Below are positions 27,701 to 48,597 of a stretch of DNA of 64,000 nucleotides, in pieces. The stretch is taken from the NCBI GenBank assembly GCA_016212095.1, contig JACRHH010000005.1, positions 1 to 64,000 of the forward strand, in the 5' to 3' direction. A program made the position numbers and the translations under genes. The notes under the pieces are model-generated. The model had not been told where the DNA came from. It saw only the letters and a list, made by a program, of their open reading frames with translations, and ran no database searches. Numbering within the stretch: the first letter of the stretch is position 1; every line of letters starts with the position of its first letter. This DNA comes from Nitrospirota bacterium. GTDB taxonomy: Bacteria; Nitrospirota; Thermodesulfovibrionia; SZUA-242.

Positions 27701-30700
27701 ATGCGTCGTTTAGGCGTGCTTGCGTTTGTATTCTTTTTGTGCCTTTTTGTGTTTGACGCGATGGTGTATGTTCTTGAGGCGGCGCCTCCAACTTATACCC
27801 CGTTGTCGTCTGTGTCGATGACCACGGCTGATGGCACAGAGATATGGGGTTCCAGGATTGCCGTAGATAAATTCGGTGACTTGTTCGTCCTGGATCGGTT
27901 TAATGGGAAAATAAGGGTTTTCCATGTCGATACGGACGGTGCCGGGCCTGATGTGCAGAGCGAAATATCGGAGATAGCGTACCCGCGAGACAGTCAGCCT
28001 ACTGCTATAGCTGCTGACGGAAGTGGCAGGCTTATTGTGGCCGAGGGCGATGGTTCCGTGAAAATATATCAGAAGTCTTACAATGCGGATCACTCCTTCA
28101 TTAATGACTGGACTTATGTGGCCTCGCTTAGCCCGTCAGCATCCTTGATGTGCGATGCAGTCTCGGTTCCTGCCAGGGATTTTTGCAAGGTTACCGACAT
28201 TGAGGTTGCCTCGGATGGCAAGATCTATGTAGTTGATTCGCTTGCTGGCAAGATCCTCGCGTTTGGAAGTAATCTTCAGTTCAGCGCTAACTTGACGACC
28301 ACGATCAATAGCGGTCTTGCTCTGCTTTCAAGTAGTGATACTGTTCTTAAGAGTGCGGTTAACAAGCCTGTGTCGGTTGCTGAGTCCGGCGGTATCCTTT
28401 ATGTTGGTGATTGTCCGCTTGAGTATGTGGCCTCAGTGGGTACGTCAACATATACCTCGCGCATTATTAAGCTTAATCTTGGAACGAGTGCGGTATCTGC
28501 TTTCCGGACTACATTTGTTTCATCTGGCAAGTATGTTGATCATAATGAGGGGAACATATCTTTTCCGGCAGGTCTGGTTGTGTATGGCGGATATATTTAT
28601 GTTGCCGATCCTGGGCAGTTTGCAATTCAGGTTTTCGATGCGAATGGGGCTTATCAGGGGTGTACCGATGCAAATGCGGACGGCGTATATGATGGTTGTC
28701 TTTATGTGACCAGTAATCTTATGCGCACGGTTAATGATATTGCTATCGGAGAAGATGATGTTGTGTATGTTAGTTCAATTAATACCCACGATGTGAAGCG
28801 GTTTGCCTTGAGCGGGTCTCTTTTGGTGAATCCGGATGAGATGTTTTTTGAGGCGTTGGGTGCAAGTTCGATACCTGTCAAGAAAGCCGATATCGCAAGG
28901 CCGAGTTCTTCCGGTGTGTTAAGCTGGAGCGCTGTAGGTGATGCAAGCTGGCTTTGTCTTTCGGCTGATCCGAACTGGACGCCTCAGGGGGGGTGTTCTC
29001 AGAGCTTGTCGGGAACGCAGTCCGCAGGTGTCAGTGCGTCCAGTTTTTATGTCGGAATTAATCATGTTGGTCTTTTGAAGGGTGTTGATTATGTTGGCTC
29101 GGTAAGGGTGTGTAATTCGACGACCGCTGCATGTGATACGGTTGCCGTGACAGTCAGGATAAATGCCGGAAGTCTGCTGTGTGGTGACGGTAATGCTCCT
29201 GTGCCGTTTACAGTTGAGGATGGCGCTCCGGCGTATTGCTCATCTTGCACTCTGGGGACGACCGATGGTAGTCCGGTGCCTGCGAGCGTTGCTATTGATT
29301 GTGCATCCGGTTTGTGTCCGTCCTGGCTTACGGTGACTCGCAGAGCTTCATCAAATGTGGTTGACTTCTGTGCTGTAGAGGGGGCGGTTGCTGGGTTCTT
29401 TGATAGTGAGACGGTCGTATTCTCTGATCCCAGTACTGTGTTGTTGCCGGCTCATGTTGATACCAGTCTGAGTATCGTCTCGTCAGGGAATGGCCAGATT
29501 ACGGTCAATACCAATATAGACGCGAATTTCACTATAACTGGGAATTATACTCCGGCTACTGTATTTAATGGCCCAACTGTGGCTGGAACGTGGACAAGTC
29601 CGTCAACGTGGGGTGGATGTTACGATATAGTTTATGGTGTTCAGGCCGGATATTTTACTCCGCCTACCGAGAAGGTGTGTATGCCTGCCGGTGGTTCTAT
29701 CGTGTTCAATGGCACTTACAAGCAGCCGAGGATTGCTGCTGTTATGGGGGCTGGAAGCATGAATACGAGCGAAGTCCGTGTTATGGACATAAATGGAGCG
29801 CAGACGGCATCGTTTACCGCATTTGATGCGGCTAAGGTCAGGTATGGCGCGCGTACTGCAATGGGCGATGTTGACGGTGATGGCGCTGACGAGATAGTCG
29901 TGGCCAAGGGTGAGGGTGGTGTAAATAATAGTGAGATCAAGGTGTTCAAGCTTAATGGGGCTCCGTTGAGCGGTGCCAATTTTATCGCGTTTTCCACTTT
30001 GTACATGAATGGTGCGAGAGTGGCGAGTGCGGATTTCGATGGGGATGGGCAGGATGAGATAGTTGTTGGGACATCAGAGAATCGAGCTCTTGTCCGGGTG
30101 CTTAAATATGATGCTGCCGGTCAGAGAATGGTTGACACTGGAGTGATGTTTAATGCTTTCCCGTCCGCATCGTATGGCGTGAATATCGCAACGGCCATGT
30201 TTGATGTGACATCCGACACTATACCGGATCCTGTAATTGTAACCACAACCGGTAGCGGGAAGCTTTCCGACCCCCAGATGAAGATATGGAAGATTAACGC
30301 GGGTGGCGCTGTTGGTTCATGGACTGTAGCGGATACCGGCATCGCTATTCCTGTGTCTGGATTCTTGCTCGCGGATGCTACCGGATTTGGCGCGTCAACT
30401 GCGGCATACAAGACAATAATTGCAGCCGGTACGGGTGCTAACGGCGGAATCGTTGAAATATATGATACAACCGGATGGAATTCGTGCTCTATAGCGATAA
30501 ACGAATATAACGGTGCGTGTTCATTGCCGTCATTTAGCAGTCGAACACTTTGCATTGCAAACAGTGGAGTCTGGACTGCTGGTTCTGTTGTCAGGCAGAG
30601 TGATGGAATAGAACTGGCGGTAGGCGACATGAATGCGGATGGTTCGATTGAGGTTCTTGTCGGACTGGGCGCGGGAGCGGATACAGATTCTAAACTTATT

Positions 30701-30805
30701 GTTTTTGGTGCCGATACATGTAACTTGAAAGCCCCATATACAATGAATCCATTTCCTGTTGCAAAGTTCGGAGCACGGGCATCAATCGGTCATACGGGGA
30801 ATTAA
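27701..30805 (+). CDS. secreted NHL/FG-GAP double-propeller protein with BACON-like domains
   Basis: Product of 1034 residues from ATG 27701, chosen because GGAGGGG lies just upstream and the signal peptide (RRLGVLAFVFFLCLFVF) follows. Domain order by inspection: NHL-like propeller (about 45-400), two Cys-containing BACON-like beta-sandwiches (about 400-620), a short PEGA-like domain (about 625-690, VNTNIDANFTITGN), then an FG-GAP propeller (about 690-1030) with calcium-type loops DVDGDGADEIVVA, DFDGDGQDEIVVG and DMNADGSIEVLVG. It carries one copy of a C-x10-C-x6-W module (30518-30574) also found four times in the next gene. No heme motif. It is the first gene of the giant cytochrome operon, so a surface adaptor for those cytochromes is likely (inference). 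Confidence 0.8.
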   Translation: MRRLGVLAFVFFLCLFVFDAMVYVLEAAPPTYTPLSSVSMTTADGTEIWGSRIAVDKFGDLFVLDRFNGKIRVFHVDTDGAGPDVQSEISEIAYPRDSQPTAIAADGSGRLIVAEGDGSVKIYQKSYNADHSFINDWTYVASLSPSASLMCDAVSVPARDFCKVTDIEVASDGKIYVVDSLAGKILAFGSNLQFSANLTTTINSGLALLSSSDTVLKSAVNKPVSVAESGGILYVGDCPLEYVASVGTSTYTSRIIKLNLGTSAVSAFRTTFVSSGKYVDHNEGNISFPAGLVVYGGYIYVADPGQFAIQVFDANGAYQGCTDANADGVYDGCLYVTSNLMRTVNDIAIGEDDVVYVSSINTHDVKRFALSGSLLVNPDEMFFEALGASSIPVKKADIARPSSSGVLSWSAVGDASWLCLSADPNWTPQGGCSQSLSGTQSAGVSASSFYVGINHVGLLKGVDYVGSVRVCNSTTAACDTVAVTVRINAGSLLCGDGNAPVPFTVEDGAPAYCSSCTLGTTDGSPVPASVAIDCASGLCPSWLTVTRRASSNVVDFCAVEGAVAGFFDSETVVFSDPSTVLLPAHVDTSLSIVSSGNGQITVNTNIDANFTITGNYTPATVFNGPTVAGTWTSPSTWGGCYDIVYGVQAGYFTPPTEKVCMPAGGSIVFNGTYKQPRIAAVMGAGSMNTSEVRVMDINGAQTASFTAFDAAKVRYGARTAMGDVDGDGADEIVVAKGEGGVNNSEIKVFKLNGAPLSGANFIAFSTLYMNGARVASADFDGDGQDEIVVGTSENRALVRVLKYDAAGQRMVDTGVMFNAFPSASYGVNIATAMFDVTSDTIPDPVIVTTTGSGKLSDPQMKIWKINAGGAVGSWTVADTGIAIPVSGFLLADATGFGASTAAYKTIIAAGTGANGGIVEIYDTTGWNSCSIAINEYNGACSLPSFSSRTLCIANSGVWTAGSVVRQSDGIELAVGDMNADGSIEVLVGLGAGADTDSKLIVFGADTCNLKAPYTMNPFPVAKFGARASIGHTGN

Positions 30806-30818
30806 TCGGGGGTAACAC

Positions 30819-33800
30819 ATGAGACAAAGGTTTCTCGCGGTAAGTATAAAGGCCGCTCTGTTATTGATTCTTGCAGTAGCGCCGGCATTTGCGCTGGATG
30901 CGCCACATGATGGTACAAACCAGATAGCGTGTGGTAAGTGCCATTGGATATTTGGGTACACGACGCCGCCTACGTGGGCATCAACACAGATGGATATCGA
31001 TGATACGGCAATCAATCGAGTCTGCTGGACATGTCATAATGATGTGACGTCGCGCATGAAGAGGACTCATTCCGCGGCCACTCTTGGTTCGAAATATGGC
31101 AGCACTTGGACTTATGACTGTAAAATATGCCATAACAATCATTTGCATAACCAGAAGAATATTGCAGGCTTTGAGCTTGCTACCGGAAATGTCTCTTCCA
31201 GTGAAGCATATAACGCCAATCGTAATACGACCAAGGTTTTACTTAAGACAAGTGGTAACCTGTCGTTCCAGTGGGGTACGGATGACTGGAAGGGGTATGT
31301 TGTATTGGTTAATGCCACAACCGCTTATAATATTGTTGGAAGTGATGCTTCATCAATAACCGTGGAGGGTAATGTTGCATTAACTTCCGGAACGTTTGCT
31401 TTCTTGCGTGGCATGTACATTGACAATGTTGTAAATACGAAGTCAGTCAAGTTTTTTGATAAGGACGGCACTAGGACAAATTATTCCTTTGTAGATAGCG
31501 ATAGTGATACGCAGCATCAAGGTGTCTGCGAGGTCTGTCATACTCAGACACTCTATTTTCGTGCTGATGGCAACGTGTGCGATGATTTGCAGTACAAGAC
31601 GCAGGCAGCTTGCACCGGTGCCGGTAAGACGTGGGGGGCTTGGGGTTGTAGCAACACAACATATAAAACTAAATCTACATGCGAAAGCGGTGGCGGTACA
31701 TGGAGGGCTCCACATGCATATAGTGTGCAGCCGACTGAGACTTGCACTAATTGTCACGTAACATTTGATGGCTTTAGGCCTTCAGCATGTTTTTCATGTC
31801 ATGGTCAAACCGGTCATTCTGGTGCGCCATTGGTTGCAACTGATATCGTCAATGATCCTGTTCGTGGTGCAACCGGTCATACGGCGGCGCAAATTATCGG
31901 ACAGCATCAGCTTCATGCGATAGATAAGAAGTATTCATGCAATATATGTCATGCCCGTAATGGTATGCCATCAAAGGATGGCAAGATAACAATTGGTTTC
32001 AGCGGTATTGCATTGCCGGCAGGTGCGGCTCCGCAGTATGATGGAATCGATTTCTCCAACGCAAATTACAGCTACAATGCTACTAATGGCACAATAATTA
32101 CAACAATTGATCCGACAAAGCAAACGTGTAATAATGTCTACTGCCACAGTTCTGGGCAGAGCGAAGATGGTAACACTGCGGTTCCGTATTACACAGGATC
32201 ACCTAATTGGACAGACCCGCAGAGTGTCGGTTGCGGCGATTGTCATCCGACACTAACCCCGGTATGCTCAAAGTCGCAGTATAAAGATCAGCTTGCCTGT
32301 GAGACTGCGGGTGGCATATGGAAGCCCGGCATATGGAGCGGCAGCCATAACAAGCATTTGTGGGGCGTTTCGATTCAGGTCGGATGCAGCAATTGTCACC
32401 CCGGTGTCGTGGATTCACCTCTTTCAAATAATTCTGCTACGCACATTAACGGTCAGATTAACGTAACTGATGAGTATGACGGTGGCGGACGTCCTGGTAA
32501 TGGTTACGGCGCCTGTAATCAGGCATATTGCCATAGCTCAGGACAGGGGGCAACGCCTGACGATCCGAATCCGTATTATTATGGACGTGTGGTTTGGGGA
32601 CAGGCGAACAGTGTGGGTTGCGGTATCTGTCATCCGACAGCGGAATGTAGCAATACCCTCTACACTACCAGAGCCGACTGTATTAACAATGGTGCAACAT
32701 GGACTCCTGTAATCAGTACAGGTAGTCATGCCAACCATATTACGCAGGGGGTAATATGTGAAAATTGCCATGATGGTGCTGGCGATGCAAGCGACAATAC
32801 CCCGTATGCTACATCGAATCATAGAAACCACCTGATTGAAGTGGGTAATGCAGTGACAGGCCTCACATATTCAGCAGGTGGCGCTGCCGGTAACGGATAC
32901 GGAAATTGCACGAACGCGACATGTCATACCAATGTTCAGAATGAGGGGGGTATAGGCTCGCAATTGAGGCCTACACCTGTCTGGGGTTCGCTTGGTGCCG
33001 GCGGCAATTCATGTGGAATATGTCATCTTGGCGACGGCAAGCATGGACAAGCTACATTAATGCAGAGCGGGAGCCATCAGAAACACGTAAGCTATAACGG
33101 TGGTCAATTATTAATTGACACTCTAAATCCGAATTGCTCTGCATATTGCCACAACACGGCTGGCTATCAGACAGCCAAACACAATAATAGCAATATTGAT
33201 GTCATATTCTCAGCCCCGGTTGGAGGAGCATATAGCCAGGTCTCGAATCCTCCTTCGAACGGGTATGGAACCTGTTCTACCGTATATTGCCACGACCCGG
33301 GTGCCGTAGGAACTGTGACTATGACATGGGGTGGAACACTCTCGGACGCCTTGGAATGCGATTCATGTCATGGCGGAAACCGGCTTGCAACCAATACGGC
33401 AGGATTTGGGATGATGAATACAGGCGCGCATTCGGCGCATATCAATAATGCAGATGCTGAACTTGCAACATTTGGTTGCGGCAAGTGCCATTTCAATACT
33501 GTTACAGATGGGAATGACAGGCTGATTACGGGATCATCACATATTAACTTTGCAAAGGACGTGCCTGTGAATTGCAATTCGTGCCATCAGAACGGTAGTA
33601 GCGTTGCAGTAGGGCCGCCTGTATGGACAAGTGGAAGCATCTTGGACTGCAAGGGTTGTCACGGTTCCGGCGGGACGTCAAGTTTTGGAGAACCTGACAC
33701 CGGGTTGTCGGGAACGACACATGCCAAGCACGTTATTCAGGCAGCCGATTGTGGTCGCTGTCATAATGGAACAACTACCACTGGAACCGATATAACCGGA

Positions 33801-35843
33801 ACGTTGCACCTGAATTCGGTCAAGGATGTTGTTATGTCTGTTACATATGGCGGTACGTATTCAGCAGGAACCGGATGCTCTAATGTCTATTGTCATGATC
33901 CGTCCAACCAGGGCAATCTCAGCCCGGTTTGGGGCGGTAGTCTGCCGGATTCCGCCGAATGTGACTCGTGTCACGGCGGTAATGTCGCATCAACGGCAAC
34001 AAGCGGACGCGGCCCCATGAATAGCGGATCCCATGCGGCACATATCAACAAGAGCGGTGTCTATTGTGGCGATTGCCATTCAGCTACCGTTACCGTTCCG
34101 AATGATAGATCAATTTCTGGTGCAGCGCATGTCAATACTGTAAAGGATGTCAGCATTGCTGCCGCACGTGGTGGCGATGGTTTTGACTATAGTTCTGTGT
34201 CCGGCAAGTGTTCAACAACATCTTGTCATGGTTCGTTATCACCTGCATGGGGTGCGCTTGGAGCAGGGTGTGCAACCTGTCACGGCATGGCTGTAAATCC
34301 TGCTGATGGCCGTGACACCGCCGGTGACACAGGGAACACGGATGCTCAGGTTGGCGCGCACGTTGCGCATCTTTCGGGTGGGCATGGTTATGCGCAGGCT
34401 GTAACATGTGGAACATGTCATAATGTGCCTGTTGATGTTATGGATGCCGGACATATTGACAGCATATTACCTGCCGAGGTTTCAATTTCGGGTTCTCGTG
34501 CCACCGGCCTTGGTGCGCTGACCGGTTTATCCTTTAATCCGGCAACAAGACAGTGTTCCAATACCTGGTGTCATGGTGCCGGTCTTGTTACGGGCGATCA
34601 TGTGCCTACATGGAATGTTCCTGTTCTGACCGGGATTGCGACGAATGACTGCACTCAGTGTCACGGTTATCCACCTGCCGGTATACCTGCTCACACCGGT
34701 AAGGTGCCGACAGATTGCATCACGTGTCATGATTATGGAATTAATGCGGCAGGCACTGGATTCAATATCACAACATACCATATCAACGGTGTGGTTGAAG
34801 GCGGCGGCGATGCATGTATAGATTGTCATAGCGCAGCGGGCGGCTTGCTTGGCGGCTCAGCCCCTGATGCCACACATGCAAAGCATGTCGGGAATTATTA
34901 TGTCAATAGCGCGGTTTCAACGAATGGTTATGGTACAACCAATCCTGAATGGCTGTCTGTAAACATCAATCCTGCAAACGGATCATATGAATTCGGTTGT
35001 GGAAACTGTCATCCCGCCAGTTCAACCAATCATATGAACGGTGTTGTTGATATAAGCCTGAACAGCACTCATGGCGGCGCAATCAAGTCGAAGAATGGAG
35101 TTGCAACCGATACGGACGGTTATGTGCGTACAGGCGATACCGGATTCAACATGGTTGGTGACGAGAGGGTTACTTGTACAGCCGCATACTGCCACTCGGA
35201 CAGCATGGGCGGATATGCAAGTTCGCCTGAATGGTTCACCGGAGCATTCGCGGCGGCAGACTATTGCGCAAATTGTCACGGCAATACACCTGCCGGAACA
35301 TCGCACAATGCACACATGAATACGATTACAATTCATTACAGTAATATTTACAACGGAACCAGCGGATTGCTCACGCCTGCCGAAGTCCATGGTTTGGGCG
35401 AATCCCTGACGATCAACTGCAATCTATGTCATGCAAACACGTTAACGGTTGCGAGAAATGACAAGAACGCGGCTTGTACGACTTGTCACACTACCGGGGT
35501 AAACGCTATCGCCACTGCTGATCTGAGCAGGGATTACCATGTGAACGGTACTGCGGATGTGCAGTTTGCCGCAGTTAATGTGAAATCCAAGGCTCAGCTC
35601 AGGAATTCGAGCAAGCCTGCCGAATGGAATCGATTCGATGTGGATGGCGATGGTGTATTGAGTACTGGTGATTACAAGACTGCCGGAGCTCATGATGTTT
35701 CAGTTCTGCCATTGAGTGCCGGAACATTCAACAAGAACATTCAGACCGGGTCGGTTACCTGTGCCGTTGTCTGTCATAACAATCAGCAGGCAACATGGAA
35801 TGGAACCGTGACGTGCGGAAGCTGCCATGTGGATCTTCAGTAA
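30819..35843 (+). CDS. giant multiheme c-type cytochrome, about 39 potential hemes
   Basis: Product of 1674 residues with signal peptide (about 1-25, PAFALDA). By my count 29 CXXCH, 8 CX4CH (e.g. CNNVYCH, CSNVYCH, CTAAYCH) and 2 CX3CH (CSAYCH, CAVVCH). The CX4CH...CXXCH alternation is the Geobacter-type motif (TIGR01904/PF09698). Four copies of a C-x10-C-x6-W module without His interrupt the N-terminal third (31578-32702). It contains one full copy of a 200-residue hexaheme module (33273-33875) shared with the next gene. It lies 13 bp after the propeller gene and 8 bp before the next cytochrome. Extracellular or periplasmic location expected. Confidence 0.93.
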   Translation: MRQRFLAVSIKAALLLILAVAPAFALDAPHDGTNQIACGKCHWIFGYTTPPTWASTQMDIDDTAINRVCWTCHNDVTSRMKRTHSAATLGSKYGSTWTYDCKICHNNHLHNQKNIAGFELATGNVSSSEAYNANRNTTKVLLKTSGNLSFQWGTDDWKGYVVLVNATTAYNIVGSDASSITVEGNVALTSGTFAFLRGMYIDNVVNTKSVKFFDKDGTRTNYSFVDSDSDTQHQGVCEVCHTQTLYFRADGNVCDDLQYKTQAACTGAGKTWGAWGCSNTTYKTKSTCESGGGTWRAPHAYSVQPTETCTNCHVTFDGFRPSACFSCHGQTGHSGAPLVATDIVNDPVRGATGHTAAQIIGQHQLHAIDKKYSCNICHARNGMPSKDGKITIGFSGIALPAGAAPQYDGIDFSNANYSYNATNGTIITTIDPTKQTCNNVYCHSSGQSEDGNTAVPYYTGSPNWTDPQSVGCGDCHPTLTPVCSKSQYKDQLACETAGGIWKPGIWSGSHNKHLWGVSIQVGCSNCHPGVVDSPLSNNSATHINGQINVTDEYDGGGRPGNGYGACNQAYCHSSGQGATPDDPNPYYYGRVVWGQANSVGCGICHPTAECSNTLYTTRADCINNGATWTPVISTGSHANHITQGVICENCHDGAGDASDNTPYATSNHRNHLIEVGNAVTGLTYSAGGAAGNGYGNCTNATCHTNVQNEGGIGSQLRPTPVWGSLGAGGNSCGICHLGDGKHGQATLMQSGSHQKHVSYNGGQLLIDTLNPNCSAYCHNTAGYQTAKHNNSNIDVIFSAPVGGAYSQVSNPPSNGYGTCSTVYCHDPGAVGTVTMTWGGTLSDALECDSCHGGNRLATNTAGFGMMNTGAHSAHINNADAELATFGCGKCHFNTVTDGNDRLITGSSHINFAKDVPVNCNSCHQNGSSVAVGPPVWTSGSILDCKGCHGSGGTSSFGEPDTGLSGTTHAKHVIQAADCGRCHNGTTTTGTDITGTLHLNSVKDVVMSVTYGGTYSAGTGCSNVYCHDPSNQGNLSPVWGGSLPDSAECDSCHGGNVASTATSGRGPMNSGSHAAHINKSGVYCGDCHSATVTVPNDRSISGAAHVNTVKDVSIAAARGGDGFDYSSVSGKCSTTSCHGSLSPAWGALGAGCATCHGMAVNPADGRDTAGDTGNTDAQVGAHVAHLSGGHGYAQAVTCGTCHNVPVDVMDAGHIDSILPAEVSISGSRATGLGALTGLSFNPATRQCSNTWCHGAGLVTGDHVPTWNVPVLTGIATNDCTQCHGYPPAGIPAHTGKVPTDCITCHDYGINAAGTGFNITTYHINGVVEGGGDACIDCHSAAGGLLGGSAPDATHAKHVGNYYVNSAVSTNGYGTTNPEWLSVNINPANGSYEFGCGNCHPASSTNHMNGVVDISLNSTHGGAIKSKNGVATDTDGYVRTGDTGFNMVGDERVTCTAAYCHSDSMGGYASSPEWFTGAFAAADYCANCHGNTPAGTSHNAHMNTITIHYSNIYNGTSGLLTPAEVHGLGESLTINCNLCHANTLTVARNDKNAACTTCHTTGVNAIATADLSRDYHVNGTADVQFAAVNVKSKAQLRNSSKPAEWNRFDVDGDGVLSTGDYKTAGAHDVSVLPLSAGTFNKNIQTGSVTCAVVCHNNQQATWNGTVTCGSCHVDLQ

Positions 35844-35851
35844 GGCGGTAA

Positions 35852-38800: not shown

Positions 38801-41800
38801 ACGTACACAGCCGGCACGGGTTGTTCAAATGTCTATTGCCATTCGGTTGTTCAGCTTGATGGCGGAACAGCTGTAACCGGTCTGCCGGGTGAGTATAAGC
38901 AGTCACCTGCCTGGGGTACCGCAATAGTATGCGGAGACTGTCATGCGGCGGTTCCGGCAACCGGTAAGCATGGCCTGCATATCACTGGCGCAAGCGCTGT
39001 TTGCGGCGACTGCCATAACGGCGCTGGAAATGGAACTGTTGCTCCCGCTTCAGGCCATGCCAACATGTCGGTGGAAGTGTCCGGCGGCACAACAAAGATA
39101 ACGTCATATGACTCAGCCGGAGTGGGCAACGGCTATGGCACATGTAGCAACATCGTCTGTCATGACGGCAACAGCGCGGCCTGGATACGCTCTGATGTTG
39201 CCGGAACCGTATCGTGCGGCGATTGCCACACAGATCCGACCGACATAGACGATTACACTTACAAGAACGGAACCGCTGCGAAGATCGGAAGCGACGAATG
39301 GGGCGTGTCCGCACATGGCAGCACAACCAGGGCCGCGCTGGCCTGCACGACTTGTCATACAAGAGCGGTCGCACATAATACTGCCGGCAACTACTTCAGG
39401 CTTACAAGTTCCAATAACAGTCTCTGCATGAACTGCCACAGCGGTTTGAATCCCTCGTATCCGAATGCTCCTGCCGTGGATGACGTTTTACATTATGGCG
39501 TCAAGCACAACGCAACATTCAACGGCGGCACGGTATGTTGGGATTGTCATGATCCGCACGGTGACAGGGGAAGCGCGGAGGCAGGCCCGATAGCATCCAT
39601 ACACAAGCGTCCATGGCTTGCGCATGATGCTGATGGTAAACCGACAAAGATTTCAACTATCGACACCGACTTCACCGGAACTCTCGGCGCGCTTGCATGG
39701 ACGGATTTCGTCAAGCCTGGCCCGAATTTCAACGGTGTATGCCAAACCTGTCACGAGTCATCTGCCACTATTGCAAATTTTTACCGTTACGATACATATC
39801 CGAATGTTGCCGGAAGCTACAACACCGCGCATTATCAGGGCACCGGATGCAAAGACTGCCACAGGCATCCCGCGTTTGAGCCGACCGGCTGTAATGTCTG
39901 CCATCCTTTCCCGGCTACATCAAACGCGCATACGAAGCATATCAACAACATAGTGGCGCAGAAGGGCCTGACCGAGGCTCCCGCAGGGTATGTCGGCAAT
40001 CCGGTGTGTGGTGTATGTCATAACGCCACATCGCTGGTTTGGCACGGCGGATCGAGCAGCTTTAACGGGAACTACAGGAACATATTCTCACCTGCGCCGA
40101 CAACAGTAGCCGACCAGCTTGCGTACCAGTTCGGATCGAGTGTGCCGAGCTATGACAAGGCCGGGACAAAGACTTGCTCGAACGTCAGCTGTCACCTCGG
40201 AACTTCTCCGAGTTGGGGAACCGCAGAGGCAAGCTGCGGCACATGCCATGGCGATGACGCCTCCGGCGTGCCGCTTACAGCCGGCGGATTGGCTAACCCG
40301 CCAACCGGACATGGCCCAGGCAAGCACCAGCAACACGCTGTTACAAATGGCATACCGTGTAATACATGCCATAACAATAATGGAATGCCGACGCCTGACA
40401 ACGTTATTACAGTGAGCTTCACGGCGAATGCTACGGGTGGTCAGTACGACGGCGCAACAGCAACATTGAATGCCGGGTACACATATGCGGGAACGCTTGC
40501 AACGACGCCGACCGCAACCGGACAGACATGCGCGGTTTACTGCCATTCGATTGTTCAGACCGACGGAGGCGGCCCGATTGCCATGGGAACCGCCGATTAC
40601 AGGCAGCCCGACTGGGAGACCGGCACAATTCAGTGCGGCGATTGCCACAACGGTGACGGTGTAAATGGAAATACGGCGTCTGTCATGAATTCAGGCAGCC
40701 ATACCGACCATTTAAGCACCGGCGCTGTCTGTGATAACTGCCATACCGGAAGCACGCATGTCAACGGTGCAATAGAGGTAGCCGCGTCATTGGGTTACAG
40801 CGGCGATACATTGCCCGGAAACGGAACCTACGGCTCATGTTCCTCGGCCTGCCACAACAATGGTGTTGGCCAGGTTACAAGCCCGACATGGGGATCGACC
40901 GTGCCTCAGTGTTCAGAGTGTCATCTTGCGGCTCCGGCAACATATGCGCATTCGGCGCATCTCAACGGCGGCGCTGTTTGTGCAAACTGTCATGCGGGAG
41001 CGGTTCAGGGATCGACTCCTCCAACCGTGAATCATCGTAATGGCGTCTCTAACGTAGACGGCGGCGCGATTGTATGGAACAGCACAACGCATCAGTGCTC
41101 CAATGCTAGTTGTCATAACGACGGGCTTGGAACCTTGGTGCTGACACCCGACTGGAGGGCTGGAGCGGTTAACGACTGTTCCGAGTGTCATGCCACCAGG
41201 CCGACAACGGGGGCGCATTCAGCCCATATGAACAACGGCGCTACGTGCGGCAGCTGTCACGATGCAACTGTAGAGGGCACAACGGCTCCAGCCCGTCACA
41301 GGGACGGAACCAAGGAGGTGTATGACGTCAATCCCGGCGACCTTGGCTTCACCGCCGGAAGTTGCTCTACTTCGCCATGCCATACCACGGTTCAGGGCAG
41401 CAGCGCGGACAACATGTCTGCAACTGCCGGGACGCAGAATACTACACCCGACTGGAGCACCGGACACCTGCCAGTTTGCGGCGGATGTCACGCTGCTGTG
41501 CCGACGACCGGCAAGCATACCAATCATCTGACTAATTACGGTGCAACCTGTACGGATTGCCATGAGGGCGCTCCGGCTGGAACGGCTGCTTCACCGCCGA
41601 CCACCACGCCGACCATGAATCATTACAACGGCACTATTAATCTTAAGGGAACCCTGAACTACTCACTTGGTGGAACAATTGTCCCCGGTGCGCATGCATA
41701 CGGTAACTGCACAGACCCCAACAGCGGATGCCACTCGAGTACTGTATCAAGAAACTGGGGCGGACTTGGCGCCGCATGCGGAAGTTGCCATACATATCCG

Positions 41801-42082
41801 CCTGCGACTGGAGCGCATAACAAGCACACGACGCATCTGAGCACGGTGGAGGCAAAGGCTCTCAACGAGAACAATGTGACTTGGAATGCCGCGTCCCATC
41901 CTGTCTGCGCTGTCTGTCACGATATGGGGTTGTCCGTAAATCACGAGGACACTGCCGATTACATAGTGCCGGATTCGCCGCATAGCTTCAACGGCGGCGT
42001 CCCGTCGTACGACAGCGTGAACCAGAGATGCTCGAACGTGAACTGTCACTTCCAGCCGACTCCCAAGTGGAAGTGTCCATAA
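35852..42082 (+). CDS. giant multiheme c-type cytochrome, about 54 potential hemes
   Basis: Product of 2076 residues. A long N-terminal extension of about 45 residues precedes the hydrophobic signal core (VAILALMLTVSYIAA, ending PVQAEA). An Fn3-like domain follows (about 75-160: YNYTITGLTNGTAYQVRITY). The rest carries 40 CXXCH, 10 CX4CH, 3 CX3CH (CTTACH, CAVYCH, CSSACH) and one CX6CH (CTDPNSGCH, 41708-41734). Two tandem hexaheme units of 200 and 201 residues lie at 37619-38821. The C-terminus ends in PTPKWKCP, almost identical to the next protein. Few natural cytochromes are predicted to carry more hemes. An outer-surface conduit or heme store is inferred. Confidence 0.93.
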   Translation: MRMATESFLGKFANVEKVRARMMGEDIIRLFGAHAGFFNRASRVAILALMLTVSYIAAMPVQAEALNGTTAGTANAVSADGGIDVSASYTDDTNGNNTLLIEWGIADFSMGAQTVLHSANPYNYTITGLTNGTAYQVRITYQDVDGIIAGTAINIIANVIPSNQLIHNSATTRSAKWGGLWGVAGGKYGEFTCYTCHESNAANIKALRSVIASPNSPLDSFPGSSVVALDARDGQSSYGDDLGTHATSTKVCEVCHSQTSYHRYDTAGQTVLDHNNARDCTRCHRHNTGFRGSGCDSCHGNPPINIATMVGFTNPSSTGSITAGAHNKHANDRGITCETCHSGSAGSGVTHDAGTVTIGFSIFNGNYDGGTYDGQATVTYDSTSFTSITNTDSLTCSGVYCHSNAMPLSGTNVYASPVWNDGSGQTCGSCHSAPGDVSRTWSSSHNTHAANYAYTCDNCHSLTAGSNSTIVDYSRHVNDVKDVAMAATYGGTYAAGQCSNVYCHSNGNGGVGAVVPEWTVTVMTCDSCHLTPPGTGSHNAHTVSANCTTCHNATTSDGATIADKTKHANKVKDIVFATGYGGTYTPGVGCSNVYCHDSSSLGVLSPAWGGSLPDKPECDSCHGGNRNSTNTAGNGPMTMGAHTAHMNNADINLGSFGCGKCHAATVTDGNDRLITGPSSHVNMMVDVPTACTTCHKDGHGTAVSPPAWTSGTNLTCKGCHGTSNSLFGEPGYLSTNSHPKHVKSATDCGKCHNSTSTTGTSITGALHLNGVSNVNFDAQYGGTYTQGVGCSSVYCHDPSSIGTVSPVWGVGTLPDTAECDSCHGGNKTSTNTAGKGPITTGAHTAHIANADVNLGTFYCSKCHYNTVTNGNDRYITGTVHVNRTVDVPVTCTTACHNDGHGTSAAPPTWTSGTNLACKGCHGSTSSLYGEPDYVGSNSHAKHVSAASDCAKCHNSTTTTGTSITGTIHLNSVVNVSMSSTYGGTYTAGTGCSNVYCHSVVQLDGGTAVTGLPGEYKQSPAWGTAIVCGDCHAAVPATGKHGLHITGASAVCGDCHNGAGNGTVAPASGHANMSVEVSGGTTKITSYDSAGVGNGYGTCSNIVCHDGNSAAWIRSDVAGTVSCGDCHTDPTDIDDYTYKNGTAAKIGSDEWGVSAHGSTTRAALACTTCHTRAVAHNTAGNYFRLTSSNNSLCMNCHSGLNPSYPNAPAVDDVLHYGVKHNATFNGGTVCWDCHDPHGDRGSAEAGPIASIHKRPWLAHDADGKPTKISTIDTDFTGTLGALAWTDFVKPGPNFNGVCQTCHESSATIANFYRYDTYPNVAGSYNTAHYQGTGCKDCHRHPAFEPTGCNVCHPFPATSNAHTKHINNIVAQKGLTEAPAGYVGNPVCGVCHNATSLVWHGGSSSFNGNYRNIFSPAPTTVADQLAYQFGSSVPSYDKAGTKTCSNVSCHLGTSPSWGTAEASCGTCHGDDASGVPLTAGGLANPPTGHGPGKHQQHAVTNGIPCNTCHNNNGMPTPDNVITVSFTANATGGQYDGATATLNAGYTYAGTLATTPTATGQTCAVYCHSIVQTDGGGPIAMGTADYRQPDWETGTIQCGDCHNGDGVNGNTASVMNSGSHTDHLSTGAVCDNCHTGSTHVNGAIEVAASLGYSGDTLPGNGTYGSCSSACHNNGVGQVTSPTWGSTVPQCSECHLAAPATYAHSAHLNGGAVCANCHAGAVQGSTPPTVNHRNGVSNVDGGAIVWNSTTHQCSNASCHNDGLGTLVLTPDWRAGAVNDCSECHATRPTTGAHSAHMNNGATCGSCHDATVEGTTAPARHRDGTKEVYDVNPGDLGFTAGSCSTSPCHTTVQGSSADNMSATAGTQNTTPDWSTGHLPVCGGCHAAVPTTGKHTNHLTNYGATCTDCHEGAPAGTAASPPTTTPTMNHYNGTINLKGTLNYSLGGTIVPGAHAYGNCTDPNSGCHSSTVSRNWGGLGAACGSCHTYPPATGAHNKHTTHLSTVEAKALNENNVTWNAASHPVCAVCHDMGLSVNHEDTADYIVPDSPHSFNGGVPSYDSVNQRCSNVNCHFQPTPKWKCP
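37619..38821 (+). repeat. two tandem 600/603-bp coding repeats (hexaheme module)
   Basis: The CX4CH sites at 37619, 38219 and 38822 are spaced 600 and 603 bp apart, and the intervening protein is clearly homologous: CDSCHGGN, TNTAG-GP, GAHTAH, TVT-GNDR-ITG, CKGCHG, GTSITG. Each unit has six heme sites. A related unit occurs in the preceding gene (33273-33875, 603 bp). Confidence 0.9.
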
Positions 42083-42094
42083 GGCGGGCGCGGA

Positions 42095-45000
42095 GTGAAA
42101 ACCATGATTAGGATAGCGGAATTATACGGGAGTATCGAGAGGAGCTTGCTTGCAATGGTTAATGCCGCAGATGGAGGGCGCCCGGGTAAAGCCCGCGGCA
42201 TAGGAATGCGCGAAAAGGGCAGAGTCTCTGGAGCTTTAAGCCTTATGGCGGTGGCAATGTGCATGTCTTTGTGTTCTGTCTCAGTGGCAAGCGCATTGGT
42301 CATGGAGCCGATAACGGCATGCATAGCGTGCCATGGTAATGAACCGCCAGCGCCGCCGGTTGAGGGAGCCGCAAGAAATACACCGGTTCACGCAATAATC
42401 GGATCGCACACCACTCACATGTCAACGTATGCCGGCATTGATTGCAGCTTCTGTCATGTGCAGCCGAATGCCGGCCAGTTTGGCCATCGTAACGGGAATA
42501 TTGATATGGCCGCAGCCATCAGGGGCGGCGCATACAGCCGCGGAGCTTCGATTCCGCAGAATAACAATGTGACGCTCGCTGATTTTGGAACATGTTCCAA
42601 TACAGCATGTCATGGCGCCGGGAATTCGCCGCAGTGGGGTTCAAGCCTCGCGGCGGTTTCATTGTGCTATCGCTGTCACGGCAATCCGCTTCTGGCCAAC
42701 AATGCGCCTGAAACGAACGCGCATCAGACGCATCTTCAGTCGAACAACAATTATTCTCAGGATGTCGCATGCAGCGCATGTCATACCGTTCCCGCAAGCA
42801 TCGACATGACGGGAGCGGACGGACACTTGAACAGCGCGACTGCCGATGTGAATGTCGCCGTCGGGTTTAATGGAACCTCCAAGATCTGTTCAACCGCAAC
42901 ATGCCACGGCACAGGACTTCCCGGTGGATCGAATACCGCGCCGAACTGGACGAACATGTCTTATCTTGGCGGCACAAGCGCCGACTGCGGTGTCTGTCAC
43001 GGCAACCCGCCCACAACATCGTTGCTTTATGATCATGCCGTTGTGTCGCCCGGCGTATGCAACAGTTGTCACTATCACGACGGAACCGGCAGCCCGGCCC
43101 AGCACATGAACGGCACGCTCGATGTAAGCGCGAACTGTTCGACATGCCATCAGAACCAGTACAACGCTGCTCACACCGCTCATCTGAACAATACGTCATA
43201 TGTCACTTCTTGTGATCTGTGCCACGGAACCGGCGCGGCAACCGGTACACATGTTGGACACAAGGATCTGAGCCTTACAGCAGCCAACAGGCTGACAAGC
43301 TGGGCTGCCGACACATGCGCGAATACTTGCCATAATGGCGGCACATGGAGCCCGACGACAGGGCTTGGCGCGTTGACATGCACCGATTGCCATGCCGCCA
43401 CCGGAAAGCTGCTCGATCAGGGCGGTTATCCGGCTTCTTCGGCAAAACATACGCTTCATATCGCTAATGCAACATATGTAACCGGTTCATGTGACGATTG
43501 TCATGGAACCGGAGCGACAACCGGAACCCAGACCGGCCACAAGAACGGAACGGTTCAGACAACGGTTGCCTACGTGTCTGGAACTCAGACATGCACCACC
43601 ACCTGTCATATCGCCAATACAACCGGCGACTGGACAGCGGGCGGAAGCCTGGCTTGCGCCGATTGCCACGGCGCTGTCGGCATGTCTCTGAATCGCGGTG
43701 AATATCCGCCCGCAAGCGGCAGGCACGCGCTTCATGTGGCAAACACTGCTTATGTGACCGCAAGCTGCGATACCTGTCATGGTACGGGCGCGCAGACCGG
43801 CGGACAGACCGGCCACAAGAACGGCAGCACGAACTACTCCGCCTCGATAACTTCGTATGCCGGTGGAACGCAGACGTGTATAAACTCCTGCCACCTTGCC
43901 GCTACGACCGGTGCGTGGACAACAACCGGGACTCTTGTATGCGCCGACTGTCATGATGCCGTGGGCAAGAGCATGACTCAGGGCGGTTATCCGCCTGCGT
44001 CTGCCAAGCATGCGGTGCATCTTGCAAGCAATACTTACGTGCAAAACGATTGCGCGGACTGCCATGGGGCCAATGCCACGGCAGGCACGCACAGCGGTCA
44101 CAAGAACGGAAGCGTTGAAAATACGCTTGCATATGCTTCCGCGACCCAGACATGCACCAACTCATGCCATATCGCCAATACAACCGGCGACTGGACTGTT
44201 GGCGGCAGTCTCGACTGTCTCGATTGCCATACGGCAACCTATATTGCGGCGGTCAAGCTCGCGATGCCTACAACAGGTCTGCACGATACAACACCTTCGA
44301 CATCCGGAACAATTCACGACCAGACGCTTAATGCCCAGGGCTGCGCCATCTGTCATACGGCAACACCCTCAACATTGCATCTGGACGGAACATTCCAGAA
44401 CAGCGCTCCGACAATTCAGTTTGCCGTCAGCGTCGGATTCACGGATGGCGCAACGCCATCGTGTGCAACTACCTGCCATGCCGACAGCGCGAAGTGGAGC
44501 CGCGTGTGGCACGAGAATTCGGCGGCCACCGACGGCACGGAGTGCGTCGGCTGTCATGGAACATTCACCGGCGGCTGGGCTTCGGGTGTTGTGCCGAACC
44601 ACAATGCAGACTGGGACGCCGATCTGTCTCCGGAGCTTGCTTCCAACCACACAGGTTGCAAGACCTGCCACGGATTCAATTCGGCCACCGACAAGGCGAC
44701 CGCATACAACGTGAGCATGCATCGTAACGGCAGCATCGAAATGAACAGCGATGCGGCTTATAACCAGACCAACTTCGGCTGCGACACGGCAGGCTGCCAC
44801 GGCGGCGCTTCGGTCAACCACAGGCTGGCCGATTCCGGCTGGACAATCGCATTTGCCGCGTTCGGCGCGGGCGGTCAGTGCAACTCCTGCCATGGCTACC
44901 CTCCGGCAACCGGAGCGCATACAAAGCATACAACCAACATATCGGCAGAGGCCGGAATGGTTATGGACTTCCTGCTGCCCACATGGGACGCGGCAACGCA

Positions 45001-45196
45001 TCCTGTATGCGCCACGTGTCATGACATGAGCACAACCAATAACCATTCGATGGGTAACACCGATCCGACGAAGTCGATTGCGCCATCAGCCGCAAGAACA
45101 TTCGACGGGGGAGTGCCCGCATGGAGCAGCGTGGGCAGAACATGCTCGAATATAAGCTGTCACTTCCAGGGTACGCCGAAGTGGAATTGTCCGTAG
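42095..45196 (+). CDS. large multiheme c-type cytochrome, about 29 potential hemes, with triheme tandem repeats
   Basis: Up to 1033 residues. The signal core (LSLMAVAMCMSLCSVSVASA) sits after about 45 residues, so either an extended signal peptide or an internal start such as ATG 42206 is used. Counts: 20 CXXCH, 4 CX4CH and 5 CX3CH. Four tandem units of about 93 residues with three hemes each lie at 43211-44290 (CDxCHGTGA, GTQTC-x3-CHIANTTGDW, CADCH). The C-terminal ending GTPKWNCP copies that of the preceding protein. A GHRNGNIDMAAAIRGGAYS segment near residue 130 recurs in the following protein. It starts 12 bp after the preceding stop. Confidence 0.92.
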   Translation: MKTMIRIAELYGSIERSLLAMVNAADGGRPGKARGIGMREKGRVSGALSLMAVAMCMSLCSVSVASALVMEPITACIACHGNEPPAPPVEGAARNTPVHAIIGSHTTHMSTYAGIDCSFCHVQPNAGQFGHRNGNIDMAAAIRGGAYSRGASIPQNNNVTLADFGTCSNTACHGAGNSPQWGSSLAAVSLCYRCHGNPLLANNAPETNAHQTHLQSNNNYSQDVACSACHTVPASIDMTGADGHLNSATADVNVAVGFNGTSKICSTATCHGTGLPGGSNTAPNWTNMSYLGGTSADCGVCHGNPPTTSLLYDHAVVSPGVCNSCHYHDGTGSPAQHMNGTLDVSANCSTCHQNQYNAAHTAHLNNTSYVTSCDLCHGTGAATGTHVGHKDLSLTAANRLTSWAADTCANTCHNGGTWSPTTGLGALTCTDCHAATGKLLDQGGYPASSAKHTLHIANATYVTGSCDDCHGTGATTGTQTGHKNGTVQTTVAYVSGTQTCTTTCHIANTTGDWTAGGSLACADCHGAVGMSLNRGEYPPASGRHALHVANTAYVTASCDTCHGTGAQTGGQTGHKNGSTNYSASITSYAGGTQTCINSCHLAATTGAWTTTGTLVCADCHDAVGKSMTQGGYPPASAKHAVHLASNTYVQNDCADCHGANATAGTHSGHKNGSVENTLAYASATQTCTNSCHIANTTGDWTVGGSLDCLDCHTATYIAAVKLAMPTTGLHDTTPSTSGTIHDQTLNAQGCAICHTATPSTLHLDGTFQNSAPTIQFAVSVGFTDGATPSCATTCHADSAKWSRVWHENSAATDGTECVGCHGTFTGGWASGVVPNHNADWDADLSPELASNHTGCKTCHGFNSATDKATAYNVSMHRNGSIEMNSDAAYNQTNFGCDTAGCHGGASVNHRLADSGWTIAFAAFGAGGQCNSCHGYPPATGAHTKHTTNISAEAGMVMDFLLPTWDAATHPVCATCHDMSTTNNHSMGNTDPTKSIAPSAARTFDGGVPAWSSVGRTCSNISCHFQGTPKWNCP
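43211..44290 (+). repeat. four tandem ~280-bp coding repeats (triheme module)
   Basis: Heme codons of equivalent sites begin at 43211, 43490, 43766 and 44051, giving periods of 279, 276 and 285 bp. Units share GTGA-TGT/G-TGHKNG, GTQTC-CH, TTGDWT-GGSL, CADCH, GGYPPAS-KHA-H and TYVT. Codons differ between copies, so the duplication is not very recent. Confidence 0.88.
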
Positions 45197-45207
45197 GAGG
45201 GTGCGCA

Positions 45208-48200
45208 ATGATTGCAAAGAATATTTACATGGATAACAAGAGGCATGAGGTGACGATAATGGCCAAAGGCATTGAAATCATGAACGGAAACGAGGTGAGG
45301 TCGGAAATGATGGGACTTGGATGGATGGGGTTATTTTCGGGAAGGAGTTTCGCCCGGTCGGTGTTCATGACCGTCCTCGCATTGGTCATGATGTTTTCGC
45401 TGGCGTATGTGGACAATGCTTTCGCCGCGACAAATTCATATTATGTAACCTCACAGGCTTCAAGCTGGGGCGTTGGAGCCGACGGCGCGATAACCTGGAC
45501 AGCTCTTGCCGATACGACAGCTACCGGAACCAATGTGAACAGGATGGGTACGACAACGACCGCGCCCACCGGCACTACCCGCTATCGTTGCAGCCAATCC
45601 GCATCAGGCACATACACAAATGTGGAACTGATGAGATATTACACTCCGGCATACACGTCGGCCCAGACACTGTCGGCCAACATCACATTCCATGTAGACG
45701 CATACATGAGAACCACCGGAACCAGCGCATCGTTTGCCGTAAGTCTGTATGACTACAACCCTGCCGGCGCTTCAGGAAACGGCGTGCAGATCGGCACGAC
45801 GCAGACCGTGACAATGTCGGCATCCAGCACGGCGCTTCAGTCATTTAACGGCAACTTTGCCAATACGTCATACAGCATCGTTTCCGGACATCGTCTTGAG
45901 GTGAGGATGCTGATGTCGAGCAATGCCAGCCGTCCAGCCCTTCTGCTTGGTCAGGCGGCTAGCGCAACGCCTTCCGGTAACGTTTACATAACAGTTACCG
46001 AAACCGCTGGCGGCAATACGACGACCGTGGGCAACGGAACCGAGCCGGGTAATGCGTCTGTCGCTCCCGGCGGCGCGGCAACGATGCTCGACGCCTTCAC
46101 GCTTCAGACATCCACCGGCACGGATTCCGTGACCGCGGCCACAGTTACGCTTGCTGCCGGCACGAACGCCGCCTTGAGCCTGGTTGAAATAACCAACGAC
46201 GCAGGAAGCACGGTTTACGGCTCCGCCGCCAATCCGGCGTCGACCACCGTGGCCATAACGCTTTCCACGCCGATAACGGCAACCGCGACATCAACGCAAT
46301 ACAAGGTGCGTGTAACGCCGAAGGCCCACGCTAGCATGCCTGCCGTTCCGGGCAGTTCATACAGTGTGACCGGAACCGTGACCGCCCTTACAAGCACTAA
46401 TACGAAGACTTATAGCGATGCTGGAAGTTCGACGGTTACGGTTGACAACCTGTCGCCGTCAAATCCGACAGGTCTGAGCGGCACCGCCGGCGACACTCAG
46501 GTTGCGCTGACATGGACAAACCCTGCTGACGCCGATTTCAGCGAGGTTGTGGTTCTCCGTAAATCCGTGTCTGCCATCACCGACACGCCTGTTGAGGGAA
46601 CGGCATATGTTGCGCCTGCCGCATTGGGCGCAAGCACGATTGTTTACTCCGGAGCCCTTCAGTCATTCACCGATACCGGCCTCACGAACGGCACGGCCTA
46701 CTATTACAAAATATTCGCCAAGGATTCAAACGGAAACTACTCTTCCGCCGGTCTTGCGGCAGGCCCCTATTCGCCTGTTGCGCCGCCCTGCACAATTACG
46801 ACATGCACGGGTTGCCATGCCAATCCTCCGGCTGACGGAACCAGAAACGCCACAACCGGCGCTGTTGTCGGTTCACACTCCAAGCATGTGACAACGCTTG
46901 GTCTCACCTGTAACGACTGTCACATTGACAGCTCCTTGTATACAACCGGTCACAGGAACACCAACGTTGAAATGGCTGCGGCTATCAGAAGCGGCACATA
47001 CAGCAAGGGCGCCAGCTTCGCTCAGGTGTCGAACCCGACGACCGGCACATGCAACAATACGGTTTGCCACTATTCCGCCAGCCCCTCATGGGGAAGCGCC
47101 GGGCCTCTGGCGTGTAATTCGTGCCACGGTTATCCGCCGGTTGGCGCGGGAGTTGTAAATCATGGTTTTGCCGACAACGGCGCAACCCTTATTGCCAACC
47201 ATGACGGCTGCATGTGGTGTCATCTTACAAAGGACAGCGGAACCGGCACGCATCAGTCCCACGCAAATTACAGCGCGACCACGATGCATACGGACGGCAA
47301 TATCCAGATGAACTCCGCCGTCAGTTACGATACAGTTACCCGTGGATGCAACGGAGCCTGTCATGCCAACGACGCGGCACATCGCCTGCCCACAGCTTCC
47401 GGTAAAACGGTTGTGGCTGTTGCTGGCGACGCGCCCACGGCATGTAATTCGTGCCATGGCTATCCTCCAACCAACCTGACTTCACACGCTTCCGGAGCCA
47501 CGGCTGTCAACCATGCCAACTTTGCGGACGGCGGCGCGGCAATAACATCGCAGCACGATCAGTGCGTTACCTGCCACGGAACAAAGGACAGCGGCACAAG
47601 CACGCACGCGCCGTATGCCACATATAACCCGACCACGATGCATCGTGACGGCAATATCCAGATGAACTCGACCACCGTCTATAACTCGACCAACTTCGGC
47701 TGCGACAGCGCGTGTCATGCAAACGATGCAACCCATCGCCTGACCGATTCGGCCCTGCCGGTTGCGGCGTTCGCAGGATCATCCGGAAGCTGCGAGGCCT
47801 GCCACGATTCAACCACTCCGGCAACTGGCGCGCCGGGCGTCTATCCGGCGCAGTTCAACCCCACAACCATGACCGGCGGCGTACACCGCGTTGCCGGAGC
47901 CGGAACGGTTACGCCGAAGTCTACAAAGATTACCGCAGGCACGATTCTTTTCGTGACCAACCCGTGGATGGGCGCGGTTACGAAAGACAGCGTCATGACC
48001 TGCTCCGACTGTCATGACACGAACGGGCCGGACGGCCTCGGCGTTCATAAGTCAGGCAGAAGCATTACGGATACATACTATCTGCTCAGGTATGTCAATA
48101 ACACGATCAACACAACCCAGAGTGGTACGGCCATGGGAGCTCCAAACAACACCCTTGCCAATATCGCAACCACGGCTTCAACCAAGGAGAATCTTTGCAT

Positions 48201-48597
48201 AAACTGCCACCGCGCGGACGTCTATGGCACTGGATCAGGTGTGACAGGGTTTAACACCGTGCCTGCAAACCGTTCGCTCAGCGCGATTCAGCATTACAGC
48301 GCATTCCCGATTTCCGGCGACCCGTGCGGACGTTCATCGCTGGAAGGACAGGGCAACACGCAGCGTGTCGGTTGCTATAACTGCCACGGCGGCATGCGCG
48401 TGACAGGCGGTCTGCATGGAACCAACAGGGCAGTATCGGCGGTCTCCGGTTCGCCGATAACCGGCTGGACGGGCGCTTCCACAGGCTTCGTGAACGGTGA
48501 CGCATGGTCTCAGCAGCCCACGAACACAGGCTGTTACGCAAGCAACACCGGCGCAACCACATGGAGCACCTGTAACAAGGGCACGCATAACAACTAG
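45208..48597 (+). CDS. multiheme c-type cytochrome (about 13 potential hemes) with N-terminal beta domains and Fn3
   Basis: Product of 1129 residues. ATG 45208 is preceded by a perfect AGGAGG (45195-45200), which decides the start; the frame opens further upstream inside the previous gene. The signal core (VFMTVLALVMMFSLAYV) follows about 50 extra residues. Residues about 75-440 form beta-sandwich domains without heme sites; a fibronectin type III domain follows (about 440-530, TNGTAYYYKIFAKDSNGNYS). The C-terminal half holds 10 CXXCH, one CX4CH (CNNTVCH) and two CX3CH (CNGACH, CDSACH), with a repeated DGNIQMNS...CHAND-A-HRL unit. As the last gene of the operon with adhesive-type domains, it could dock the system to surfaces or other cytochromes (inference). 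Confidence 0.9.
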   Translation: MIAKNIYMDNKRHEVTIMAKGIEIMNGNEVRSEMMGLGWMGLFSGRSFARSVFMTVLALVMMFSLAYVDNAFAATNSYYVTSQASSWGVGADGAITWTALADTTATGTNVNRMGTTTTAPTGTTRYRCSQSASGTYTNVELMRYYTPAYTSAQTLSANITFHVDAYMRTTGTSASFAVSLYDYNPAGASGNGVQIGTTQTVTMSASSTALQSFNGNFANTSYSIVSGHRLEVRMLMSSNASRPALLLGQAASATPSGNVYITVTETAGGNTTTVGNGTEPGNASVAPGGAATMLDAFTLQTSTGTDSVTAATVTLAAGTNAALSLVEITNDAGSTVYGSAANPASTTVAITLSTPITATATSTQYKVRVTPKAHASMPAVPGSSYSVTGTVTALTSTNTKTYSDAGSSTVTVDNLSPSNPTGLSGTAGDTQVALTWTNPADADFSEVVVLRKSVSAITDTPVEGTAYVAPAALGASTIVYSGALQSFTDTGLTNGTAYYYKIFAKDSNGNYSSAGLAAGPYSPVAPPCTITTCTGCHANPPADGTRNATTGAVVGSHSKHVTTLGLTCNDCHIDSSLYTTGHRNTNVEMAAAIRSGTYSKGASFAQVSNPTTGTCNNTVCHYSASPSWGSAGPLACNSCHGYPPVGAGVVNHGFADNGATLIANHDGCMWCHLTKDSGTGTHQSHANYSATTMHTDGNIQMNSAVSYDTVTRGCNGACHANDAAHRLPTASGKTVVAVAGDAPTACNSCHGYPPTNLTSHASGATAVNHANFADGGAAITSQHDQCVTCHGTKDSGTSTHAPYATYNPTTMHRDGNIQMNSTTVYNSTNFGCDSACHANDATHRLTDSALPVAAFAGSSGSCEACHDSTTPATGAPGVYPAQFNPTTMTGGVHRVAGAGTVTPKSTKITAGTILFVTNPWMGAVTKDSVMTCSDCHDTNGPDGLGVHKSGRSITDTYYLLRYVNNTINTTQSGTAMGAPNNTLANIATTASTKENLCINCHRADVYGTGSGVTGFNTVPANRSLSAIQHYSAFPISGDPCGRSSLEGQGNTQRVGCYNCHGGMRVTGGLHGTNRAVSAVSGSPITGWTGASTGFVNGDAWSQQPTNTGCYASNTGATTWSTCNKGTHNN

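Follow-up and report, generated by a model that had tools for sequence, protein, structure and literature searches.

Organization of the run of cytochrome genes

The stretch analyzed here (hereafter, the window) comprises 64,000 nucleotides of a Nitrospirota bacterium (Thermodesulfovibrionia; SZUA-242; assembly GCA_016212095.1, contig JACRHH010000005.1, positions 1-64,000, forward strand). The subject of the analysis is a run of five genes on the plus strand (27617-48597), a gene for a heme-free propeller protein followed by four head-to-tail genes for multiheme cytochromes, which forms the tail end of a cluster of electron-export genes of about 35 kb (Table 1). The same strand upstream of the run encodes an octaheme cytochrome, two tetraheme cytochromes, two NHL proteins, a PpiC/SurA-type peptidyl-prolyl isomerase (PPIase) and a protein of 729 amino acids without a Pfam match. 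This arrangement is kept in relatives, and the run is one case of an already known kind of system, not a class of its own.

All five reading frames of the run are intact. The gaps between successive genes are 13, 8 and 12 bp; the frame of the fourth cytochrome overlaps the third unless translation starts at an in-frame ATG near 45208, which leaves a gap of about 11 bp, so that the initial annotation of this DNA, with four consecutive cytochrome genes separated by 13 bp at most, is borne out. A strong, stable hairpin lies where the same annotation placed a strong terminator; its T tract is short. The lead protein had been described as a double propeller without heme, and it indeed contains zero heme motifs and combines NHL with FG-GAP repeats. 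Its ATG at 27701 is preceded by an AGGAGG-like site and is, therefore, a better start than 27617, as originally proposed. The predicted structure of this protein is all-beta (predicted local distance difference test score, pLDDT, 70; predicted template modeling score, pTM, 0.45), and its N-terminal propeller matches solved NHL domains; given the modest pTM, the NHL part alone is relied upon here.

Heme motifs were counted as CX2CH, CX3CH and CX4CH, each by its histidine. By this exact count, the four cytochromes contain 134 motifs (39 + 53 + 29 + 13); the earlier figures for the first, third and fourth protein are thus retained, whereas 54 for the second becomes 53. Composition-preserving shuffles yield a mean of 0.1-0.9 motifs per protein and a maximum of 5, so that the motif richness is not due to chance. 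Just 3-8 cysteines per cytochrome lie outside the motifs, and non-motif histidines outnumber the motifs in each of the four proteins, which provides enough second axial ligands for bis-histidine hemes. A short cysteine motif (C, Tyr, Thr/Lys, C, Gly-Gly/Ala, Trp) recurs between the heme motifs of the 39-motif protein, around residues 250-300, 480-500 and 608-627, and accounts for part of the eight cysteines outside the heme motifs there.

All four proteins pass the curated cut-off (27 bits) of TIGR01904, the profile for CxxxxCH/CxxCH-domain cytochromes. In a Pfam scan, PF09698 is above the cut-off in the 39-motif and 53-motif proteins and the MtrC/MtrF domain PF22113 in two giants, and the fn3 match in the terminal cytochrome is weak, under its cut-off; no OmcA/MtrC-family protein scores above its cut-off. 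The 53-motif protein contains tandem repeats of about 200 amino acids (approximately residues 516-1061) that are 44-68% identical, which points to growth through internal duplication; a sequence search with this protein against solved structures gives no match.

Upstream genes resembling those of filament and conduit loci

The tetraheme cytochromes of the window are homologous to the subunit of the OmcE filament of Geobacter sulfurreducens, and features of an OmcE-type filament locus are present around them, namely PPIase and NHL propeller neighbors, which were recognized as such features in the cross-phylum comparison made in this analysis. Among the markers of this locus, the octaheme cytochrome is conserved best, with all 8 motifs invariant in 9 aligned sequences.

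Features of an MtrAB-type conduit are present as well, in the form of an MtrB-like barrel (by predicted structure) and an MtrA-like multiheme partner. By sequence, the barrel protein shows no match; a search of solved structures with its profile yielded just a single weak hit, and that entry is unrelated. The model (pLDDT 77.5) consists of a signal helix followed by about 28 long strands, and among solved structures it is matched best by MtrB (6r2q_B, Mtr complex, 3.3e-11), ahead of TonB-type receptors. Approximately residues 164-254 of this model form a long acidic disordered insertion; in relatives, Asn/Gly-rich repeats are found there in the alignment consensus. The 21-heme cytochrome exceeds the cut-off of TIGR03508 (DmsE/MtrA family, 192 bits), and its best solved-structure match is 6r2q_A (1.5e-19), a chain labeled 'Cystathionine beta-synthase' in the molecule field that, judging by the title of this Mtr complex entry, probably is MtrA. 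An opposite-strand TPR gene separates the 21-heme gene from the rest of the locus, and 6 kb lie between it and the barrel gene; hence, its assignment to the locus is by proximity.

Table 1. Features of the giant cytochrome locus in the window
Position	Strand	Feature	Supporting match or property
13289..14842	+	21-heme cytochrome, paired CXXCH, MtrA/DmsE-like, candidate periplasmic half of a conduit	21 CXXCH; TIGR03508, 212 bits
14922..16322	+	NHL-repeat six-bladed propeller protein	Pfam NHL, 4.4e-28
19768..20562	+	tetraheme cytochrome cyt4A, OmcE-like filament-subunit homolog	phmmer against OmcE filament 7tfs, 8e-19
20861..23050	+	large outer-membrane beta-barrel, MtrB-like (predicted), 729 amino acids	structure model
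23152..24192	+	PpiC/SurA-type peptidyl-prolyl isomerase, candidate folding helper	Pfam Rotamase_3, 1.9e-20; SurA_N_3
24206..25300	+	NHL propeller, lipobox-like LSGC at N-terminus	Pfam NHL, 9.9e-28; 46-51% identity in relatives
25371..26189 (likely start 25416)	+	second OmcE-like tetraheme cytochrome, cyt4B	phmmer against 7tfs, 5.8e-18; family profile, 1.5e-26
26210..27358	+	octaheme cytochrome (7 CXXCH + 1 CX3CH)	43-48% identity
27617..30805 (best start 27701)	+	heme-free lead protein: NHL propeller, two Ig-like domains, FG-GAP propeller	Pfam FG-GAP, FG-GAP_3, NHL
30819..35843	+	giant cytochrome, 1674 amino acids, 39 motifs (29+2+8), Sec-type signal peptide	TIGR01904, 191.8 bits
35852..42082	+	giant cytochrome, 2076 amino acids, 53 motifs (40+3+10), fn3-like N-terminal stretch	TIGR01904, 297.9 bits
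42095..45196	+	large cytochrome, 1033 amino acids, 29 motifs (20+5+4)	TIGR01904, 116.4 bits
45121..48597 (likely start ~45208)	+	terminal cytochrome, ~560 amino acids Ig/fn3-like, then 13 motifs (10+2+1)	TIGR01904, 41.1 bits
48619..48644	+	terminator-like hairpin	fold z = -3.7; only four T 3' of hairpin

Conservation of the locus

When the 39-motif protein was used as a single query against genome contigs, no hits were obtained, whereas the alignment of the conserved octaheme did work as a query. Homologs of the octaheme are present in Nitrospirota, in Desulfuromonadales and in a small number of further phyla, with scattered variants in Verrucomicrobia, Phycisphaera and Neomarinimicrobiota. 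The core consisting of barrel, PPIase, NHL, tetraheme and octaheme genes is repeated in many Nitrospirota, and most of it (PPIase, NHL, tetraheme, octaheme) in Desulfuromonadales. An octaheme gene and a propeller gene lie on one strand at most about 5 kb apart in 17 of 230 Thermodesulfovibrionia genomes, from 8 families. In a set of 20 propeller genes, from loci seeded independently of the octaheme, with the propeller protein or with PF09698 as the seed, a multiheme gene directly follows the propeller gene in 18 cases and a tetraheme gene directly precedes it in 9. Where loci were read, the gene next to the propeller gene encodes a multiheme cytochrome, usually a giant. The commonest order is PPIase, NHL, tetraheme, octaheme, tetraheme, propeller, giant, terminal cytochrome, with one giant of about 2000 amino acids (44-56 motifs) and 8-13 motifs in the terminal protein; the window differs from this form by three giants instead of one and by the extra tetraheme upstream of the barrel. 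PF09698 is found in 58 of 200 genomes of the class compared with 0 of 14 control genomes. Giants encoded beside the propeller gene carry additional LamG, beta-helix, TSP3 or Calx-beta domains in three loci (L046, L047 and L022).

In Geobacterota, a search of 14 named genomes, reached through named loci, reveals a propeller protein of about 900 amino acids with one, two or three giants behind it and, in many cases, an intervening OmcE-like tetraheme. Propeller and tetraheme genes are followed by genes for proteins with 27, 21 and 34 motifs in Pelotalea chapellei (L157), 27, 35 and 10 motifs in L161, 51 motifs in L162 and 35 motifs in L163; in L159, proteins with 22, 16 and 26 motifs follow the propeller directly. 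Thus, the window is not alone in having a run of giants after a propeller gene.

The genome to which the window belongs encodes at least four further giant-cytochrome loci (39, 26, 36 and 47 motifs). One of these, on contig C15, encodes a paralog of the 53-motif protein that shares its fn3-like N-terminus (46% over 2054 aligned columns). At two other giant loci of this genome (L041:1-6893 and L043:1127-9394), the cytochrome gene is followed by one for a protein of 2297 or 2755 amino acids that lacks heme. Within the window, another CxxxxCH/CxxCH cytochrome (59372-61522, minus strand; 716 amino acids, 16 motifs, 12+4) is encoded 11 kb downstream of the run. Two ResB-like genes (52965-54398, plus strand; 62393-63175, minus strand), ResB being a component of cytochrome c maturation, are located near the giants, and an ORF6N-domain protein (54421-54939), a domain usually related to phages or mobile elements, is encoded just downstream.

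Comparison with described systems

The initial annotation could not match the run to a described system; this no longer holds, given the adjoining genes for OmcE-like tetrahemes, an MtrB-like barrel, an MtrA-like cytochrome, a PPIase and NHL proteins, and the recurrence of the order across the class and in Geobacterota. The parts are known, whereas no published operon with exactly this gene order, and no paper on the combination of giant cytochromes with nanowire genes in Thermodesulfovibrionia, was found in the open-licence literature, to which the search was directed.

Compared by description rather than by sequence, the window adds to the OmcE locus of G. sulfurreducens a heme-free double-propeller gene and four giants. 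The octaheme of the window may be the counterpart of GSU0616. In G. sulfurreducens, a predicted gsu0615-gsu0616-gsu0617 unit adjoins omcE (GSU0618) (PMC1829397).

The osc (omcS-companion) nanowire cluster contains the same kinds of parts as the window, a PPIase, a propeller and large cytochromes; reportedly, according to the abstract of the primary osc paper, OscH is the PPIase and OscD is propeller-like. In this cluster, OscH has been linked to folding, OscD to morphology and OscEFG, as a proposal, to secretion, and the large cytochromes are OscI (GSU2495, 26 hemes) and OscJ (PMC13194489, PMC12977616), both listed as periplasmic. OscC and the osc filament are hexahemes of the OmcS type; in contrast, there is no six-motif cytochrome among the multiheme genes of the window, which therefore does not belong to the osc type.

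In bacterial partners of anaerobic methanotrophic archaea (ANME), a single operon encodes a six-bladed propeller, a PPIase and cytochromes with 16 and 26 hemes (PMC5539420), and OetABI is a porin-cytochrome conduit with nanowire cytochromes (PMC10553843). The ANME-partner operon resembles the window in combining a propeller, a PPIase and large cytochromes but differs in heme numbers (16 and 26 against 39, 53, 29 and 13), in phylum, and in that no FG-GAP double propeller has been described for it. The MtrCAB conduit is matched by the barrel model and the MtrA-like cytochrome; however, the latter has 21 hemes in the window compared with 10, and no MtrC-type decaheme lipoprotein was identified in the window.

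Dozens of heme motifs on a single polypeptide are also found in the high-molecular-weight cytochromes of Desulfuromonas acetexigens, a set expressed during extracellular electron transfer, and in multiheme cytochromes of ANME, both with up to 86 motifs (PMC12133095, PMC9012536). With such numbers published, and with 55-61 motifs in relatives of the window (60 and 61 included), 53 motifs are no record, and the suggestion that the protein of 2076 residues is among the most heme-rich known is not supported. ANME types A and B possess S-layer domains, whereas the Pfam scan detects none in the proteins of the window, so that an assignment to this cytochrome type was rejected.

Proposed function and alternatives

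From the observed gene content, motif counts, homologies and conserved order, we infer the probable location and role of each protein as follows. The five genes would constitute the distal module of a locus that serves extracellular electron transfer and is of the OmcE-nanowire kind. Electrons would pass from the periplasm to the MtrA-like multiheme cytochrome and through the MtrB-like barrel across the outer membrane, reaching external OmcE-like tetrahemes, which may polymerize. The PPIase might help exported cytochromes fold, and the NHL/FG-GAP propellers might guide assembly or attachment. The giants would be exported via Sec, loaded with heme, and then act outside the cell as long surface wires or adapters that connect the barrel and the filament with extracellular minerals or partner cells. 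We favor this combination of an OmcE-type filament and an MtrAB-like conduit with moderate confidence because of the matches of both tetrahemes to the OmcE filament structure, of the modeled barrel to MtrB and of the 21-heme protein to MtrA; because the core order recurs, as do the linkage of octaheme and propeller across families, the adjacency of propeller and multiheme genes and, in part of the loci, a tetraheme gene directly before the propeller; because the giants have enough histidines for bis-histidine hemes; and because the ANME-partner operon and OscD, OscH, OscI and OscJ are similar. Support for surface exposure of the giants is indirect, coming from their fn3/Ig-like stretches and from the additional LamG, beta-helix, TSP3 and Calx-beta domains that giants of relatives carry, which are typical of exported surface proteins. 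Several observations weigh against this interpretation: no lipobox or other anchor is seen in the giants of the window; a gap of 258-342 bp precedes the lead gene, where a separate transcript may begin; the distribution is patchy, with the two sister genera lacking a full-length copy at a similar score; OmcE-like sequence is no proof of polymerization; and the role of cytochrome filaments is itself disputed in the literature.

The absence of a lipobox from the signal peptides of the giants would also fit an electron store, with the giants retained in the periplasm, where they would serve as a capacitor or would bridge the inner membrane and the conduit. Skennerton et al. read the 16- and 26-heme proteins of the ANME-partner operon as periplasmic (PMC5539420), as OscI and OscJ are listed, and the very high number of hemes per chain is compatible with storage. 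We nevertheless regard such a store as rather unlikely, given that chains of more than 2000 residues are large for the periplasm and that the fn3/Ig-like stretches and the additional domains in the giants of relatives are more usual extracellularly. Of the initial proposal of a cell-surface conduit or electron store, an electron-transfer operon, plausibly at the cell surface, is retained; sequence is compatible with either conduit or store. That the giants form a free-standing surface system, an outer cytochrome set like OmcN/OmcO located beside the nanowire locus by coincidence, seems less likely still. Several relatives that belong to a single family (L023, L025 and L030) have the propeller-giant pair with no tetraheme or barrel genes nearby, so that the pair can exist apart from the nanowire core, and the further giant loci elsewhere in the same genome are consistent with such independence; yet octaheme adjacency extends over 17 genomes of 8 families, and an OmcE-like tetraheme lies between propeller and giants in L157, L161, L162 and L163. 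Finally, the internal repeats of the 53-motif protein could raise the suspicion that genes were fused or split in assembly or gene calling. Frame-disrupting errors, which the initial annotation named as a concern, were looked for: the frames are intact and every DNA repeat match across the run is below 80% identity, so that repeat collapse or mis-assembly is unlikely, and equally large intact homologs occur across many independent genomes. An artefact is, accordingly, hardly credible.

Implications

What appears to be new, judging by the comparisons above, is the giant-rich variant in Thermodesulfovibrionia; the kind of system and its parts were already known. To our knowledge, giant cytochromes have no known job, and how filaments are attached to the cell and supplied with electrons is unsettled. 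The recurrent linkage of giants to nanowire-type genes makes their role testable. Speculatively, and with considerable doubt, the giants and the NHL-type lead protein could be the missing general adapter through which OmcE-type filaments are connected to an MtrB-like outer-membrane conduit, a module common to Thermodesulfovibrionia and Geobacterota. Nitrospirota of the class Thermodesulfovibrionia, on whose multiheme clusters little was found in the literature search, join the lineages with a nanowire-type gene set, and the giants, the propeller, the OmcE-like subunits and the MtrB-like barrel together provide a parts list and a hypothesis for how filaments may be attached and supplied with electrons.

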